Part shown: piece by piece, positions 17,898-25,728 of the stretch
Layout: the number at the start of each line of letters is the position of its first letter
Position numbering within the stretch: position 1 is the first letter of the stretch
Origin: Streptobacillus canis
GTDB lineage: Bacteria > Fusobacteriota > Fusobacteriia > Fusobacteriales > Leptotrichiaceae
DNA: 27,725 nt
Assembly: GCF_009733925.1 (NCBI RefSeq)
Contig: NZ_WOEI01000023.1
Location: forward strand, 1 to 27,725
Direction of reading: 5' to 3'
Notes under the pieces: model-generated
The model's input: the letters and a program-made list of their open reading frames with translations, nothing else
What the model was told of the DNA's origin: nothing
The model's database searches: none
Program-made: the position numbers and the translations under genes

Positions 17898-18944
17898 CTA
17901 TTTAAATAATAGGCCATTAGGGTTATAGAATTTATGAATAGGAGGTCCAATAGAATTATTTATAAAGAGTTCATAAGCTTCAAGATAAATATTACAATTA
18001 GGACACATAAAAGGATCAAAGCCCCAAATAGATTTAAAGTTCTTTCTAAAAAGAGAAGGAACTTTTTTAAGTTTAGACTTAAATAAAGTAAGAGCTAACT
18101 TTAACTTACTAGATTTTCTTCTAGCATAGAAACCAAATCTATTAATCATCTTAAAATGTTTATAAGGTAAATGAAAAAGTAATTTAGTAACAAAATCTTG
18201 AATAGTTAATTTATGGTAAGAGATTTTCTTATTATTAGCTAAATCATTAAACATAAAAGTAACATAATTCTTTTTAAGATTAATATCAACAATTTTATAC
18301 TCAGCAATAGGAACTCTAGCTAAATATCTACCAAGGTATTTAATAATACCTTTAGGGTTATTAACATCATTATCACCAACATTAAAGAAGAATCTAACAT
18401 CTTCTTTAATCATTTTAGAAGCCATATCTAAAGCATTTTTTTTAATAGTATCATTAGGATAATTAGCTTGACTTAAGGCTCTACATACGACATATCTCCA
18501 TTGATTAGCAATAGAATTAACATGAAAATAATTAAGTTTTTTAAAGATAAAATTTTTGTTTAATCCCCCAAGAGAAACAATAGCATGAATATGAGGATTA
18601 AATTTAAGATCTCTACCAAAAGTGTGAATAACAGTAATTAAACCATAGTGAATGATATCAGAATCAGTAAAGTATTTATCACTAGATTTAGGTATATATA
18701 TTTTTCTTTTCTTTTTATCATGAATATTATGGAATTGATATTTGAAAATATTATTAATATCAGCAGCTAATCTAGAAAGAATAGTTTTATCATAAGCAAT
18801 AAATTTTCTAAATTGTTGAGGAATAGTAAAAAGAAGATGTCTATGAGGAATATTAATTAATTGATTAGTGATGGAGTTAGTCCATTTAATAGAGTAATAA
18901 TAACTACAAGAATTACATAATCTAGATTTACAAGTAAGTTTCAT
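17898..18944 (-). pseudogene. IS91-family (Y2/HUH) transposase, N-terminally disrupted
   Basis: A 348-codon open frame of the IS91/IS801-type rolling-circle transposases. The HUH motif is FNPHIHAIV, and the Y2 region is IIKYLGRYLARVPIAEYK. The N-terminus begins in the middle of the zinc-binding domain (TCKSRLCNSC). No ribosome site precedes the ATG. Upstream in the same frame, an in-frame TAA (18951-18953) separates the ATG from codons reading R-C-H-I-C-N-F (18954-18974), which fits the missing Cys-x2-Cys zinc pair. The first 40 or so residues of a full-length protein are absent. I therefore treat it as a pseudogene by nonsense mutation plus deletion. The catalytic domain looks whole, including a C-terminal MCPNC knuckle, so residual activity from the short frame is not excluded. 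Confidence 0.82.
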
Positions 18945-19338: not shown

Positions 19339-20307
19339 ATGAAAAAATTAAAAAAAGCACAATTGCTAGATATGTTTAAAAAGATGCAAGAAGCAAGAAT
19401 TTTTGATCTTAAAGTAGCGCAATTAGTTAAAAAAGGTAAAGTACCTGGAATGACTCACTTCTCAGTAGGAGAAGAAGCAGCAAGTATAGGAGCTATGGCT
19501 GCATTAAATGATGATGATATTATCACATCAAACCACAGAGGACATGCACAAGTTATTGCAAAAGGAATAGATTTAAATGCAATGATGGCAGAAATTTTAG
19601 GAAAATACACTGGAACTTGTAAAGGTAAAGGTGGATCAATGCACATTGCTGACGTTGATAGTGGAAACTTAGGAGCTAACGGAATAGTTGGAGGGGGACA
19701 CGGTATAGCTGTAGGAGCTGCCTTAACTCAACAAATGAAAAAAACAGGAAAAATAGTTGTATGTTTCTTCGGAGATGGAGCAACTAATGAAGGAAGTTTC
19801 CACGAAGCATTAAACATGGCTTCAATTTGGAAATTACCAGTAATTTTCTATTGCATTAACAATGGATATGGAATAAGTGCTGACATTAAGAAAATGACTA
19901 ATATTGAACACATCCACTTAAGAAGTGCTTCATATGGAATACCTGGAATGTTTATACCAGATGGAAATAATGTTTTAGATGTTTATGAAGAATTCAAAAA
20001 AGCTGTTGACCACGTAAGAGAAGGTAAAGGACCAGTTTTAATCGAATCAATTACATATAGATGGTTAGGACACTCTTCTTCAGATCCTGGTAAATACAGA
20101 ACTAAAGAAGAAGTTGAAATGTGGAAGAAAAAAGATCCAGTTGAAAACTTAAGAAAATACTTAATCGAAAACAAAATCGCAACAGAACAAGAATTATTAG
20201 ATATCGATGCTTCAGTTAAAAAAGCAGTTGATGATGCAGTGGTATTTGCTGAAAACAGTCCATTACCACCACTAGAATCAGCATTCGAAGATATTTATGC
20301 AGACTAA
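19339..20307 (+). CDS. pdhA: Pyruvate/acetoin dehydrogenase E1 component, alpha subunit
   Basis: A 322-residue thiamine-diphosphate-binding subunit. With E1-beta it decarboxylates a 2-oxo acid (or cleaves acetoin) and passes the acyl group to a lipoyl domain. The ThDP motif runs from GDGATNEG (145-152) to NNGYG (174-178). GMTHFSVGEEAASIGAM near the N-terminus and YRWLGHSSSDPGKYRTKEE near residue 240 are E1-alpha loops. GGAGG lies 6 bases before the ATG. It is the first gene of four with gaps of 21, 10 and 13 bases. Sequence features are shared by PdhA and AcoA of clostridial type, so pyruvate is inferred from the absence of any acetoin regulator rather than from a residue. Base use is slightly richer in C-ending codons than the neighbours, suggesting high expression. 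Confidence 0.93.
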   Translation: MKKLKKAQLLDMFKKMQEARIFDLKVAQLVKKGKVPGMTHFSVGEEAASIGAMAALNDDDIITSNHRGHAQVIAKGIDLNAMMAEILGKYTGTCKGKGGSMHIADVDSGNLGANGIVGGGHGIAVGAALTQQMKKTGKIVVCFFGDGATNEGSFHEALNMASIWKLPVIFYCINNGYGISADIKKMTNIEHIHLRSASYGIPGMFIPDGNNVLDVYEEFKKAVDHVREGKGPVLIESITYRWLGHSSSDPGKYRTKEEVEMWKKKDPVENLRKYLIENKIATEQELLDIDASVKKAVDDAVVFAENSPLPPLESAFEDIYAD

Positions 20308-20328: not shown

Positions 20329-21321
20329 ATGGAAACAAAATTAATGTCGTTTAGAGATACAATAATTTTAGCAATGTCAGAAGAAATGAGAAGAGATCCT
20401 GACGTTTTATTAATGGGAGAAGATGTTGGAGTATTCGGAGGAGACTTTGGAACTTCAGTAGGAATGATAGAAGAATTTGGACCAGAAAGAGTAAGAGACT
20501 GTCCTATATCTGAAGCAGCAATCGCAGGAGCAGCTTCAGGAGCAGCTATGACAGGATTAAGACCAATAGTTGACGTTACATTCATGGATTTCGTTGTTAT
20601 AGCAATGGATGCAATTGTAAACCAAGCTGCAAAAACTAGATATATGTTTGGTGGAAAAGGAAAAGTACCTGTAACATTTAGATGTGCTGCAGGAAACGGA
20701 GTAGGTTCTGCTGCACAACATTCACAATCACTTGAAAGCTGGTTCACACATATACCAGGATTAAAAGTTGTTGCACCAGGAACACCAAGAGATATGAAAG
20801 GATTATTAAAAGCTTCAATAAGAGATAATAACCCAGTAATAATATTAGAATACAAATCAGAATTTAACCAAAAAGGTGAAGTACCTTTAGATCCAGACTT
20901 CGTAATACCTTTAGGTGTTGGAGAAATTAAAAAAGAAGGTACAGATGTAACTGTAGTAACTTACGGAAAAATGTTATCAAGAGTTATGAAAGCTGCTGAA
21001 GATTTAGAAAAAGAAGGAATTTCAGTAGAAGTAGTAGATCCTAGAACATTAGTACCATTAGATAAAGAAATTATCTTAAACTCAGTTAAGAAAACAGGAA
21101 AAGTTGTTCTTGTTAACGATGCTCATAAAACAAGTGGATTCATAGGAGAAATTTCAGCAATAATTTCAGAATCAGATGCATTTGATTACTTAGATGCACC
21201 AATTAGAAGATGTGCTGGAGAAGATGTACCTATGCCATATGCACAAAACTTAGAGTTTGCAATGATACCAACAGTAGATACAATAAAAGATGCAATACGT
21301 AAAACAGTAAATAAACAGTAG
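20329..21321 (+). CDS. pdhB: Pyruvate/acetoin dehydrogenase E1 component, beta subunit
   Basis: A 330-residue transketolase-like subunit completing the E1 active site. LLMGEDVGVFGGDFGTS (28-43) and CPISEAAIAGAASGAAMTG (58-76) hold Glu62, the glutamate contacting the ThDP aminopyrimidine ring. QHSQ (130-133) gives His131 near the active site. The C-terminal transketolase domain (about 200-325) includes VVDPRTLVPLDKE and DAHKTSGF. The ISEAAIAGAASGAAMTGLRPIV-type stretch is typical of the AcoB/clostridial PdhB branch. AGGAG precedes the ATG, and the gene is co-transcribed with E1-alpha and E2. Length is normal for heterotetrameric E1-beta. Confidence 0.94.
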   Translation: METKLMSFRDTIILAMSEEMRRDPDVLLMGEDVGVFGGDFGTSVGMIEEFGPERVRDCPISEAAIAGAASGAAMTGLRPIVDVTFMDFVVIAMDAIVNQAAKTRYMFGGKGKVPVTFRCAAGNGVGSAAQHSQSLESWFTHIPGLKVVAPGTPRDMKGLLKASIRDNNPVIILEYKSEFNQKGEVPLDPDFVIPLGVGEIKKEGTDVTVVTYGKMLSRVMKAAEDLEKEGISVEVVDPRTLVPLDKEIILNSVKKTGKVVLVNDAHKTSGFIGEISAIISESDAFDYLDAPIRRCAGEDVPMPYAQNLEFAMIPTVDTIKDAIRKTVNKQ

Positions 21322-21331
21322 AGGTGGAAAA

Positions 21332-22399
21332 ATGGAAAAAAAATTATTTAGAGCTACACCTGCTGCAAGAAAATTAGCATCACAGCTTAATATAGAATTA
21401 TCAGCTGTGCCTGGTAGTGGTGCTCTTGGAAGAATACATAAAGAAGATGTAGCTTCATATAAAGCAGAATCAAGTGTTAAGATATCTCCTGTAGCAAGAA
21501 GAATTGCAGAAGATAATGGTATAAACTGGCAAGAGATTAAGGGAACTGGAGTAAGAGGAAAGATAATGAAATCAGATATTTTAGCTTTATTATCTCCAGA
21601 ACATAAAGATACTTATGTTGCTCCAACTAAAGAAAAAGAATTTATTAATCAAGAAAAAACTAATATAGAACAAGTATTAGATGATAAAAAAGATAAATAT
21701 GGAGAAATAGAAGTTATACCTATGACAGCAATGAGAAAAGTCATAGCTAAACGTATGGTAGAAAGTTATTTAACTGCACCAACATATACATTGAATTATG
21801 ACATAGATATGACAGAAGCTCTTGCATTAAGAAAGAGATTATTAGATCCAATTTTAGCACAAACAGGTAAGAAAATAACTGTAACAGATATTATTTCATT
21901 TGCAGTAGTTAAAACATTAATGAAACATAAATATTTAAATTCTTCATTAACTGAAGATGGTCAAAAAATCATAGCACACAATTATGTAAACTTAGCTATG
22001 GCAGTTGGATTTGACGGAGGATTATTAACTCCAGTTGTATACAACGCTGAAAAAATGAGTTTATCAGAATTAGTAGTTGCATTAAAAGATGTAACTAGCC
22101 GTGCACTTGATATGAAACTTGCGCCAAGTGAATTACAAGGTTCAACATTTACTATAAGTAACTTAGGAATGTTTGGAGTATCATCATTTGGTCCAATAAT
22201 AAATCAACCAAATTCAGCTATACTAGGTGTAAGTGCTACAATAGAAAAACCGGTAGTAGTAGATGGAGAAATTAAGATTAGACCTATTATGTCTTTAGGA
22301 CTAACTATAGATCATAGAGTAGTAGATGGTTTAGCTGGAGCTAAATTCATGAAAGACTTAAAAGAATTATTAGAAAATCCAATTACAATGTTAATATAA
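21332..22399 (+). CDS. pdhC: Dihydrolipoyl acyltransferase E2 lacking a lipoyl domain, with two subunit-binding domains
   Basis: A 355-residue E2. The usual N-terminal lipoyl domain (about 80 residues with a DKA/DKT lysine) is absent; E1-beta ends only 10 bases upstream, so it is not hidden there. Instead two peripheral subunit-binding domains stand in tandem: residues about 6-43 (RATPAARKLASQLNI, GSGALGRIHKEDV) and 50-87 (KISPVARRIAEDNGI, GTGVRGKIMKSDI). A charged linker (88-125) leads to the catalytic domain, with PMTAMRKVIAKRM and the active-site DHRVVDG (His328, Asp332). It should form the complex core and accept acyl groups from a lipoyl domain on another subunit, most simply E3 (next gene). 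GAGGTGG precedes the ATG. AcoC of acetoin systems is an alternative name. Confidence 0.93.
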   Translation: MEKKLFRATPAARKLASQLNIELSAVPGSGALGRIHKEDVASYKAESSVKISPVARRIAEDNGINWQEIKGTGVRGKIMKSDILALLSPEHKDTYVAPTKEKEFINQEKTNIEQVLDDKKDKYGEIEVIPMTAMRKVIAKRMVESYLTAPTYTLNYDIDMTEALALRKRLLDPILAQTGKKITVTDIISFAVVKTLMKHKYLNSSLTEDGQKIIAHNYVNLAMAVGFDGGLLTPVVYNAEKMSLSELVVALKDVTSRALDMKLAPSELQGSTFTISNLGMFGVSSFGPIINQPNSAILGVSATIEKPVVVDGEIKIRPIMSLGLTIDHRVVDGLAGAKFMKDLKELLENPITMLI

Positions 22400-22412
22400 A
22401 GGAGAGAAAAAG

Positions 22413-24116
22413 ATGGCATTAGAAGTTATCATGCCCAAAGCTGGGATAGATATGACTGAGGGGGAAATTGTTAAATGGAACAAACAAGTTGGTGAATTTG
22501 TTAAACAAGGAGAAATCCTTTTAGAAATCATGACAGATAAAACTAACATGGAATTAGAAGCTGAAGAAGATGGATATGTATTAGCAATCTTAAGACAAGC
22601 TGGAGAAACTGTAGCAGTTACAGAAGTTATAGGATATTTAGGAGAACAAGGTGAAGCAGTTCCTACACCAGGAAGCGCACCTGCAGCAGCACCAGCGGCT
22701 GAAGCACCTGCAGCAGCACCAGTTGCAGCTAAAAAAGAAGATGGATATGACGTAGTAGTTATAGGTGGAGGACCTGCTGGATACGTTGCAGCTATCAAAG
22801 CTAGCCAACTTGGAGGAAAAGTTGCATTAGTTGAAAAATCAGAACTTGGAGGAACATGCTTAAACAGAGGATGTATACCTACAAAAGCATACTTACATAA
22901 TGCTGAAATTATAGAAGGAATTTCACATGCTGCAGCACGTGGAATTATGATTGAAAACCCTAAATTCACAGTAGATATGGAAAAAGTATTATCTATGAAA
23001 GGTAAAGTAGTTAAAACTTTAGTTGGTGGAGTAGGAGCATTATTAAAGAGCAACGGAGTTGATGTATTCAAAGGTGTTGCTAGAATTACTAAAGATAAAA
23101 ACGTTATGGTTGATGGAGCTAAAGAATTAGTTACAGATAAAATTATCTTAGCTGGTGGATCTAAAGTTTCAAAAATTAATATACCAGGAATGGATTCAAA
23201 ACTTGTTATGACAAGTGATGATATCTTAGAAATGAAAGAAGTACCTTCTACACTTGCAATTATCGGAGGAGGAGTTGTTGGGGTTGAGCTTGGACAAGCA
23301 TTCTCAACATTCGGTTCTAAAGTTACTGTAGTAGAAATGATGGATAGAATAGTTCCAAGTATGGATGCTGAAGTATCTAACGCTTTAAGAGCTAAATTAG
23401 AACAAAAAGGTATGACTATCATGACTTCAACTAAATTACAAGAAATAGTTGAAAAAGATGGTAAATTACATATTAAATTAGAAGGAAAACAAGACTTAAT
23501 AGTTGATAGAGCATTATTATCAATAGGACGTGTACCTGATTTAGAAGGTATAGGAGAAGTTGAATTCGAAATGGAAAGAGGAAGAATTAAAGTTGACGAA
23601 TTCATGGAAACTTCAGTTAAAGGAATATACGCACCTGGAGATATCAATGGAACTAAGATGTTAGCTCACGCTGCATTTAGAATGGGAGAAGTTGCTGCTG
23701 AAAATGCAATCAAAGGAAACCACGCTACAGCTAAGTTAGACTTAACACCAGCTGCTATCTATACTTTACCAGAAGTTGCAGCTTGTGGATTAACTGAAGA
23801 AGAAGCTAGAAAAACTTATGATGTTTCAGTTGGTAAATTTAGCTTTACAGCAAACGGAAGAGCTATCGCAAGTGACGAAAACTATGGATTTGTTAAAGTT
23901 ATAGCTGATAAGAAATATGGAGAAATTTTAGGAGTACATATAATTGGACCTGCAGCAGCAGAATTAATTAATGAAGCTTCTTCAATTATGGAAATGGAAA
24001 TTACTGTAGAAGAAATGTTAAAAACTATACATGGTCACCCTACATACTCAGAAGTAATGTATGAAGCATTTGCTGATGTATTAGGACTTGCAGTACACGC
24101 ATTAAAGAAAAACTAA
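22413..24116 (+). CDS. lpdA: Dihydrolipoyl dehydrogenase E3 with N-terminal lipoyl domain
   Basis: A 567-residue flavoprotein that reoxidises dihydrolipoamide with NAD. Residues 1-78 are a lipoyl domain (EVIMPKAGIDMTEGEIVKW; lipoyl Lys43 in MTDKTNME; EEDGYV). An Ala/Pro hinge (82-107) follows. The E3 part has the FAD motif GGGPAGYVAA (118-127), redox disulfide Cys149/Cys154 (GGTCLNRGCIP), NAD motif GGGVVGVELG (285-294), FAD-contacting APGDING, and the His542-Glu547 catalytic pair (HPTYSE). All are intact. Lipoyl-E3 fusions are known in some Gram-positive PDH and acetoin systems, but there E2 normally keeps its own lipoyl domain; here this is the only one in the operon. GGAGAG precedes the ATG. 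A bidirectional-type hairpin follows. Confidence 0.96.
   Translation: MALEVIMPKAGIDMTEGEIVKWNKQVGEFVKQGEILLEIMTDKTNMELEAEEDGYVLAILRQAGETVAVTEVIGYLGEQGEAVPTPGSAPAAAPAAEAPAAAPVAAKKEDGYDVVVIGGGPAGYVAAIKASQLGGKVALVEKSELGGTCLNRGCIPTKAYLHNAEIIEGISHAAARGIMIENPKFTVDMEKVLSMKGKVVKTLVGGVGALLKSNGVDVFKGVARITKDKNVMVDGAKELVTDKIILAGGSKVSKINIPGMDSKLVMTSDDILEMKEVPSTLAIIGGGVVGVELGQAFSTFGSKVTVVEMMDRIVPSMDAEVSNALRAKLEQKGMTIMTSTKLQEIVEKDGKLHIKLEGKQDLIVDRALLSIGRVPDLEGIGEVEFEMERGRIKVDEFMETSVKGIYAPGDINGTKMLAHAAFRMGEVAAENAIKGNHATAKLDLTPAAIYTLPEVAACGLTEEEARKTYDVSVGKFSFTANGRAIASDENYGFVKVIADKKYGEILGVHIIGPAAAELINEASSIMEMEITVEEMLKTIHGHPTYSEVMYEAFADVLGLAVHALKKN
22677..22722 (+). repeat. 27-base-period direct repeat encoding the Ala/Pro hinge of E3
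   Basis: A 19-base unit, GCACCTGCAGCAGCACCAG, occurs at 22677-22695 and exactly again at 22704-22722. It encodes APAAAP repeats of the flexible lipoyl hinge and could vary in copy number by slippage. Confidence 0.85.
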
Positions 24117-24712: not shown

Positions 24713-24738
24713 TAAAGAAAAACAGAAAGGATATGATT

Positions 24739-25728
24739 ATGAAATATATTATTAATGAAAGTAATGACACAGCATATAACATTGCACTTGAAGAATATGC
24801 ATTTAAAAAACTATTAAAAGAAGAAATGATATTCCTTTTATGGATTAACAAACCTTCAATAATAGTAGGAAGACACCAAAATACTATACAAGAAATTAAC
24901 AAAGAGTTTGTTAGAGAAAATAACATTGAAGTTGTAAGAAGAATAAGTGGTGGAGGAGCTGTTTATCACGATTATAATAACTTAAACTATACTATAATTT
25001 CTAAAGAAAGTGAAAATAAAGCATTTGATTTTAAGAGTTTTTCAATTCCTGTAATTAAAACTTTAGAAAGTTTAGGTGTTAAAGCAGAATTTACTGGAAG
25101 AAATGATTTAGAAATAGATGGTAAAAAAATCTGTGGAAATGCACAAGCATATATCAATGGTAGAATAATGCACCATGGTTGTTTATTATTTGATGTTGAT
25201 TTATCAGTATTATCTAAAGCTTTAAAAGTATCAAAAGATAAAATCGAATCTAAAGGTGTTAAATCAGTTAGAGCAAGAGTAACTAATATAGTAGATGAAT
25301 TACCTAATAAAATTGATGTTAAAGAATTTAGAGATTTACTTTTAGATTATATGAAAAAAGAATATCCAGAAATGACAGAGTATGTATTCAGTGAAGAAGA
25401 AATAGCTGAAATAAATAAAGCTAAAGCAGAAAAATTTGGAAACTGGGATTGGAACTATGGAAAATCTCCAGAGTACAATATTACTAGATCAATGAAATTT
25501 GAAAAAGGTAAAATTGAAGTATTTGTAAACGTAATAGATTCAAAAATTGATAATATTAAAATATATGGAGACTTCTTTGGAATAGAAGATGTTGCAGCAG
25601 TAGAAGAAGTATTAAAAGGAGCTAAATATGAACAAGCTGAAGTTCTAGAAAGACTTAACTCTATAAATATTTCAAGATACTTTGCTGGAATTTCTGCTGA
25701 AGAAGTAATGAAAGCAATAGTAGAATAA
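24739..25728 (+). CDS. lplA: Lipoate-protein ligase A
   Basis: A 329-residue enzyme that activates scavenged lipoate with ATP and attaches it to lipoyl-domain lysines. The signature RRISGGGAVYHD (67-78) is followed by NNLNYTII. The FTGRND loop and DGKKICGNAQ hold the catalytic lysine (Lys130), and MHHGCLLF (144-151) follows. The C-terminal accessory domain (about 250-329) is present, so it should carry out both adenylation and transfer. An in-frame ATG at 24733 lies only 2 bases after AAAGG; the ATG at 24739 has proper spacing (8 bases) and is chosen. Its likely target is Lys43 of the E3 lipoyl domain encoded 2 kb upstream. No lipoate synthase is in the window, which would suit reliance on scavenging. 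It overlaps ccdA by one base. Confidence 0.93.
   Translation: MKYIINESNDTAYNIALEEYAFKKLLKEEMIFLLWINKPSIIVGRHQNTIQEINKEFVRENNIEVVRRISGGGAVYHDYNNLNYTIISKESENKAFDFKSFSIPVIKTLESLGVKAEFTGRNDLEIDGKKICGNAQAYINGRIMHHGCLLFDVDLSVLSKALKVSKDKIESKGVKSVRARVTNIVDELPNKIDVKEFRDLLLDYMKKEYPEMTEYVFSEEEIAEINKAKAEKFGNWDWNYGKSPEYNITRSMKFEKGKIEVFVNVIDSKIDNIKIYGDFFGIEDVAAVEEVLKGAKYEQAEVLERLNSINISRYFAGISAEEVMKAIVE

Follow-up and report, generated by a model that had tools for sequence, protein, structure and literature searches.

A lipoyl domain on E3 and none on E2 in the 2-oxo acid dehydrogenase operon of Streptobacillus canis and its relatives

In the textbook picture of substrate channelling by 2-oxo acid dehydrogenase complexes, the swinging lipoyl arm is carried by the acyltransferase, E2. 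In the corynebacterial OdhA/AceF system, an acyltransferase devoid of a lipoyl domain (LD) uses an LD in trans, supplied by another E2 (AceF) and not by the dihydrolipoyl dehydrogenase, E3. In 2003, Matic et al. reportedly wrote of a "novel lipoyl domain arrangement". According to the available part of PMC7873978, the LD of the pyruvate dehydrogenase (PDH) complex of Mycoplasma hyopneumoniae is placed in E3 (PdhD), in agreement with the 2003 prediction of Matic et al.; PdhD is the protein that an anti-lipoate antibody recognised in cells, and its residue K42 was modified in protein lipoylated in vitro. Here we describe an operon with an LD on E3 and none on E2 in Streptobacillus canis, within the 27,725 nucleotides of contig NZ_WOEI01000023.1 (assembly GCF_009733925.1), hereafter the window. 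The E3-borne domain very probably serves a working PDH-type complex as its only arm, sited at the N-terminus of E3 instead of on E2. An arm in this position has a precedent in one organism studied by experiment, and the layout is common in the lineage of the window. The mechanistic reasoning of the original prediction, made from the letters of the window, is sound; its belief that no complex with the LD on E3 alone had been described is wrong, and a "categorically new" complex is rejected, given the PdhD precedent (PMC7873978, available part) and the membership of the window E2 in the curated family NF011416.

The E2 gene (21332..22399, + strand) encodes an acyltransferase of 355 residues in which Pfam finds E3_binding in two stretches and 2-oxoacid_dh, and no match to Biotin_lipoyl even at E<=1. 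Canonical E2 proteins of 2-oxo acid dehydrogenases carry one to three N-terminal lipoyl domains, as described in the available part of PMC6270654, and by Pfam the window E2 has none. The original prediction had this E2 opening with a subunit-binding domain; such a domain does stand at the start, but there are two of them in tandem, not one. Peripheral subunit-binding domain (PSBD) 1 covers residues 7-40 (21350..21451) and PSBD 2 residues about 50-86 (21479..21589); a flexible linker (21590..21703), in which the predicted local distance difference test score (pLDDT) falls below 50 at residues 90-117, leads to the catalytic domain, residues 125-354 (21704..22393), with its DHRVVDG motif. The structure model (mean pLDDT 79.2) accordingly contains two helix-loop-helix modules, a disordered stretch at 90-117 and a catalytic domain resembling known E2 cores. 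Against the NCBIfam equivalog model NF011416 (PRK14843, dihydrolipoamide acetyltransferase), the window E2 scores 651.3 bits (cut-off 429), with residues 1-355 aligned to profile positions 1-347. From this length of 347 positions, we read the model as one without an LD, and the window E2 agrees with it. The model itself does not require the absence of an LD, since the LD-bearing E2 of Streptococcus agalactiae also passes it (474.9 bits, from residue 123 on).

Conservation was assessed over 110 loci, the window included. Tandem PSBDs are present in 110/110 E2 proteins, counted from phmmer matches together with alignment columns (a strict motif regular expression caught both domains in only 20/110), and Arg34 of PSBD 1, Lys77 of PSBD 2 and the catalytic His328 and Asp332 are each found in 110/110. 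In addition, two strong PSBD matches lie within the E2 frame in all 28 E2-bearing genomes of the family of Streptobacillus notomytis. The constant Arg34/Lys77 difference between the two domains fits separate seats on E2, in which one PSBD would hold E1 and the other E3. Tandem PSBDs also occur on LD-bearing E2 proteins and are hence not peculiar to those lacking the LD; no description of the tandem PSBDs of such E2 proteins was found in the open-licence literature.

E3 (22413..24116, + strand) is a dihydrolipoyl dehydrogenase of 567 residues (TIGR01350, 547 bits, cut-off 408.8), and here the features proposed in the original prediction, namely an N-terminal LD, Lys43 and an Ala/Pro hinge, are borne out. 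The LD occupies residues 1-78 (22413..22646), with Biotin_lipoyl matching residues 4-74 at 63.5 bits, and it matches solved E2 lipoyl domains. The predicted lipoylation site, Lys43 (codon 22539..22541), lies in a DKT motif whose D42 and K43 are invariant in 17/17 aligned E3 proteins; a degenerate lipoyl-motif pattern matches once in the window and in none of 100 shuffles. The linker that follows, residues 79-110 (22647..22742), holds 13 Ala and 6 Pro within 30 residues (79-108), and the FAD/NAD/dimerisation part (22746..24098; Pyr_redox_2 and Pyr_redox_dim) carries redox cysteines 149 and 154. The structure modelled for E3 has a low mean pLDDT of 62.4 and shows a β-rich LD, a low-confidence linker at 86-108 and then the FAD part.

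The combination of an LD-less E2 with an LD-bearing E3 recurs in 92 of the 110 loci, a share that does not represent a natural frequency, as every locus was collected for its similarity to the E2 of the window. One further locus has an LD-less E2 with its E3 lying beyond the fetched DNA (phmmer survey), 16 carry the LD on both proteins and one on E2 only. This last locus, L105 (genome G033), is the sole one of the 110 with the textbook layout. Within the set, L082 comes from the same genome as L001, and L107 and L109 are two copies in one genome; two proteins that appear internally duplicated, P0001 (535 aa) and P0005 (466 aa), were left out. LD-less E2 proteins are found in Leptotrichiaceae, in mitis/sanguinis/anginosus-type streptococci and in Bacteroidota, and loci of Streptococcus pseudopneumoniae and Streptococcus mitis are among those with the LD on E3 alone. 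In the Petrimonas family, 23/61 genomes contain a full-length match to the LD-less E2 (frames of 367-393 aa), and further E2-type frames (about 410-480 aa) are present in 21 of these 23.

The presence of other lipoyl domains, on which the original prediction had made the role of the E3-borne arm depend, was surveyed in relatives: 33 genomes of the S. notomytis family (completeness not given) and 14 control genomes, the window genome being outside this survey. Among the 33, an LD-less E2 is found in 24 (matched from residue 1 or 4 to 355, frames of 347-362 aa) and a longer, LD-bearing E2 in four (frames of 439-446 aa), and five have no match at E<=1e-20. All 24 genomes with an LD-less E2 possess, on the same contig and less than 2 kb from E2, an LD-bearing frame of 568-592 aa corresponding to E3; the fetched loci show this E3 directly in 23 of them, L087 stopping before E3. 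In seven of the 33 genomes (G001, G010, G037-G041), including the four nearest to the window, the E3 domain is the only Biotin_lipoyl match at E<=0.001, and these seven have no GCV_H (GcvH) match. The controls were positive for Biotin_lipoyl in 14/14 genomes and for GCV_H in 13/14. These results make the E3-borne LD most likely the arm in this lineage. In a nine-genome search, S. notomytis likewise had a single Biotin_lipoyl match over the cut-off, on E3. The LD-less streptococci G002-G004 showed E3 and one frame of 159-164 aa, of a size that makes it a candidate biotin carrier, and a 425-aa frame of G003 was matched in addition, at the cut-off (21.5 bits, or 22.1 with neighbours). Four LD-bearing streptococci, in which an E2-size frame (467-486 aa) was also matched, provided a positive control, and Petrimonas G007 gave 13 Biotin_lipoyl matches at E<=0.1.

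LipA was found in only one of the 33 family genomes (control 10/14), so that lipoate is probably taken up. A lipoate-protein ligase, LplA, scoring at least 230 bits is encoded on the same contig, less than 6 kb from the E3 LD, in 24/24 genomes with an LD-less E2. The family genomes thus look like those of lipoate scavengers, with the E3 LD as the sole acceptor found in seven. A second lipoate cluster was observed in one family genome, at G028:C1:881733-884360, where a LipA-like frame with one TAA inside lies between two LplA-like frames, adjoined by a 95-aa Biotin_lipoyl frame.

According to the open reading frame (ORF) list and Pfam/NCBIfam profiles, the genes of the window operon follow the order E1α-E1β-E2-E3 and then lplA, all on the + strand. 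The alpha subunit of E1 (19339..20307, 322 aa) is a thiamine pyrophosphate-dependent dehydrogenase (Pfam E1_dh, 280 bits), and the beta subunit (20329..21321, 330 aa) contains Transket_pyr and Transketolase_C (NF006667, 386.6 bits, cut-off 321). LplA (24733..25728; TIGR00545, 435.3 bits, cut-off 280) likely lipoylates the E3 domain. On the opposite strand between E3 and lplA lies a gene that, from a reading of its sequence only, we take to be glutathione-peroxidase-like. Comparison with S. notomytis gave ratios of nonsynonymous to synonymous substitution rates (dN/dS) of 0.044 for E1α, 0.097 for E2, 0.098 for E3 and 0.040 for LplA, the four genes covered, which are under purifying selection. 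Upstream, the operon is adjoined by an IS91-type Y2 transposase gene (17898-18944, - strand; Y2_Tnp 106.7 bits, Zn_Tnp_IS91 32.9 bits); the corresponding place in S. notomytis (L001) is occupied by different ORFs, as judged by eye from the ORF list.

The substrate of the complex is most likely pyruvate. In the working cycle that we propose, LplA would join scavenged lipoate to Lys43 of E3, and E1 and E3 would dock on the two PSBDs of E2. Swinging out from E3 on the Ala/Pro linker, the arm would reach E1 and be reductively acetylated, then visit an E2 active site in the core for transfer of the acetyl group to coenzyme A, and finally be reoxidised by the E3 that carries it or by one nearby. In this scheme we infer how the subunits dock, how the arm moves and the stoichiometry, a change in which was put forward in the original prediction.

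Several points weigh against the view that a working PDH-type complex has the E3-borne domain as its only arm. The E3 model has low confidence, and the complex of the window is known from sequence alone. The single-LD statement rests on relatives of the window strain whose genome completeness is not given, and 17 of the 24 family genomes with an LD-less E2 contain further Biotin_lipoyl matches (two to five per genome, counting the one on E3), many of them in short frames of biotin-carrier size. These matches, together with the additional E2-type frames of the Petrimonas family and the 13 matches of G007, would allow the E2 to be served in trans by the LD of another complex or by a stand-alone lipoyl protein, the E3 LD being accessory. 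For the window this is highly improbable, because searches of seven family genomes, the four nearest among them, found no other biotinyl/lipoyl domain and no GcvH match, and because the other strong match in G002-G004 is a single frame of biotin-carrier size, with one borderline match in G003. In Streptobacillus-type genomes, trans supply is rejected and close to refuted. An assembly or sequencing error concealing an LD at the start of the E2 gene, which the original prediction had named as a possible refuter, has a vanishingly small chance and is ruled out by two observations. Between the E1β stop (ending at 21321) and the E2 start (21332) of the window there are just 10 bp, containing an AGGTGG ribosome-site-like sequence, and thus no room for an LD; this argument applies to the window only, the gap being wider in other LD-less loci (median 214 bp, 92 loci) and uninformative over all loci because ORFs begin at the first possible start codon. 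Moreover, the same layout recurs in the independent genomes of the survey, including the four nearest, G001 (S. notomytis, L001), G039, G040 and G041.

Function and substrate are the other points on which readings differ. In the available part of PMC5214746, PDH activity with pyruvate is described as undetected in lysates of Streptococcus pneumoniae, and an earlier report as having found none of the predicted functions. These statements from PMC5214746 would suit a complex that is decaying or lacks PDH activity, with E3 kept for another role. A 2002 study, which by its title is reportedly concerned with pneumococcal E3 and its role in infection, was counted on the same side. We regard such decay as quite unlikely, as it is opposed by the dN/dS values of about 0.04-0.10 in four genes, by the invariance of the active-site residues of E2 and E3, and by the E1α-E1β-E2-E3 order kept in all six loci listed, from three phyla. 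In addition, spd1025-1028 could not be deleted together with spxB, which provides genetic evidence for a functional pneumococcal PDH and shows the operon to be required when spxB is deleted (PMC5214746, available part). The substrate is not certain, since E1α falls under the cut-off of the PDH equivalog TIGR03182 (361.7 versus 393.85 bits), and two among the 120 E2 relatives listed (P0033 and P0100) are named "acetoin dehydrogenase complex" at their source. A complex of this arm layout that acts on acetoin, or on a 2-oxo acid other than pyruvate, is nevertheless unlikely: no acetoin gene was recognised beside the operon (by eye, with no profile search), and the authors who studied the pneumococcal operon found no acetoin and favour PDH (PMC5214746, available part).

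The history of the layout was examined in trees whose rows were picked from the 110 loci with near-copies thinned (E2, 65 rows; LD, 62; E3, 48; concatenated E1β+E2+E3, 47). In the E2 tree, the window groups with Streptobacillus, next to mitis-type streptococci (95/84), and the E3 and concatenated trees concur on this placement (97 each in the Shimodaira-Hasegawa-like approximate likelihood ratio test, SH-aLRT). In each of the E2, E3 and concatenated trees, the LD-bearing rows of pyogenic/mutans streptococci are nested within LD-less ones. In approximately unbiased (AU) tests, a single LD-less clade is rejected on the concatenation (p 0.0121, 47 rows) but is not when E2 is taken by itself (65 rows, p 0.217); the tested group was named after inspection of a tree, and the branch leading to the LD-bearing streptococci is long. 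The starred branches of the E3 tree force one change only. The PDH operons of L002-L055 (mitis/sanguinis/anginosus-type) were observed to fall with Streptobacillus within Leptotrichiaceae, and pyogenic/mutans operons to fall with other members of that family. A transfer between Fusobacteriota and Streptococcus, perhaps twice, is possible from these groupings.

The lipoyl domains themselves do not fall into two separate clades of E2- and E3-borne copies. Instead, the 24 copies of 12 LD-bearing streptococci form one clade (100/96), and those of G033-G036 another. In all 12 pyogenic/mutans loci, the E2 LD shares 84-100% identity with the LD on the E3 of the same operon. In protein sequence, this E3 copy is nearer to it than every other E2 copy in four (L057, L059, L062, L065), ties in one and is less close in seven, and in G034-G036 other E2 LD copies are closer. 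In nucleotide comparisons, median identity between both LDs of a single streptococcal operon is 0.885, against 0.794 for E2 LD copies between species (66 pairs, maximum 0.918); the same four of the 12 lie above this maximum, with values of 0.991 and 0.987 in two. Alike E2 and E3 domains within one operon were noted in the streptococcal loci L056, L057, L059-L062, L065, L071, L072, L077, L078 and L080, and in L106-L109. The identities point to copying of the LD inside an operon, in some species recently and in others longer ago, and suggest gene conversion. The trees suggest a return of an LD to E2 in pyogenic/mutans streptococci; such a regain is suggested and not proven, because gene conversion would account for the likeness with or without a prior loss of the E2 LD. 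A single clean loss followed by regain is likewise not proven, as the AU results conflict and the E3 tree forces only one change. No publication on copying of the LD within an operon or on single-LD genomes turned up in literature searches that were not aimed at either.

As a tentative synthesis, for which we would give somewhat less than even chances, the LD may hop between E2 and E3 of a single operon. It would have been copied to E3, and the E2 copy lost in the ancestor of a clade to which most Leptotrichiaceae, the Bacteroidota and the streptococci belong; pyogenic/mutans streptococci would then have recopied the E3 LD to E2, with repeated gene conversion. The tandem, diverged PSBDs, with Arg34 and Lys77, would offer E1 and E3 adjacent seats on a single E2 chain, which would render an arm on E3 workable.

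If the sole arm is indeed on E3, the point of attachment would be free, provided that the arm reaches all three active sites. Streptobacillus-type genomes, with one LD, one ligase and no lipoate synthase found, offer a clean natural case; operons that have the E2 copy and operons that lack it form natural pairs for the effect of arm placement on activity. Since the layout is common to mitis-type streptococci, it may likewise matter for the dispute over pneumococcal PDH. This pneumococcal link runs through the S. pseudopneumoniae and S. mitis loci. A 2007 paper by Hakansson and Smith reportedly has in its title a pneumococcal E3 "harboring its own substrate"; among the matches listed from the open-licence literature, none was by its title devoted to the LD of pneumococcal E3.

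Several known systems come close to the window operon. NF008815 (308 positions), a short E2 model that we take to be that of Mycoplasma, has its best alignment on the window E2 beginning at residue 48, that is, over one PSBD; the two PSBDs of the window E2 are thus a difference in layout that leaves the location of the arm unaffected. As in M. hyopneumoniae PDH, the E2 of the window has no LD and the LD is on E3; lipoate is attached in M. hyopneumoniae by a ligase (PMC7873978, available part), the role predicted here for LplA. No other LD was found in the four nearest genomes and three more of the 33 family genomes; gcvH is present in M. hyopneumoniae (PMC7873978, available part), whereas the four nearest have no GcvH match. 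The operons of mitis/sanguinis/anginosus streptococci, represented by NF011416/PRK14843, resemble the window in having two PSBDs, an LD-less E2 (70-73% identical to the window E2), an LD-bearing E3 and lplA in the locus, with the same gene order in two listed loci (L005, L016); unlike the nearest Streptobacillus-type genomes, three LD-less streptococcal genomes have one extra strong Biotin_lipoyl match of biotin-carrier size. Pyogenic/mutans streptococci (S. agalactiae, Streptococcus ratti) share the E3-borne LD, tandem PSBDs and lplA in the locus, and differ in carrying an LD on E2 too (12/12 loci). The meningococcal P64K protein is reportedly linked with a lipoyl domain in the title of a publication, and the gonococcal E3 (PDB 5u25), which aligns over residues 18-559, has an N-terminal lipoyl domain like that of the window E3. 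The Neisseria E2, however, also carries lipoyl domains, unlike the E2 of the window.

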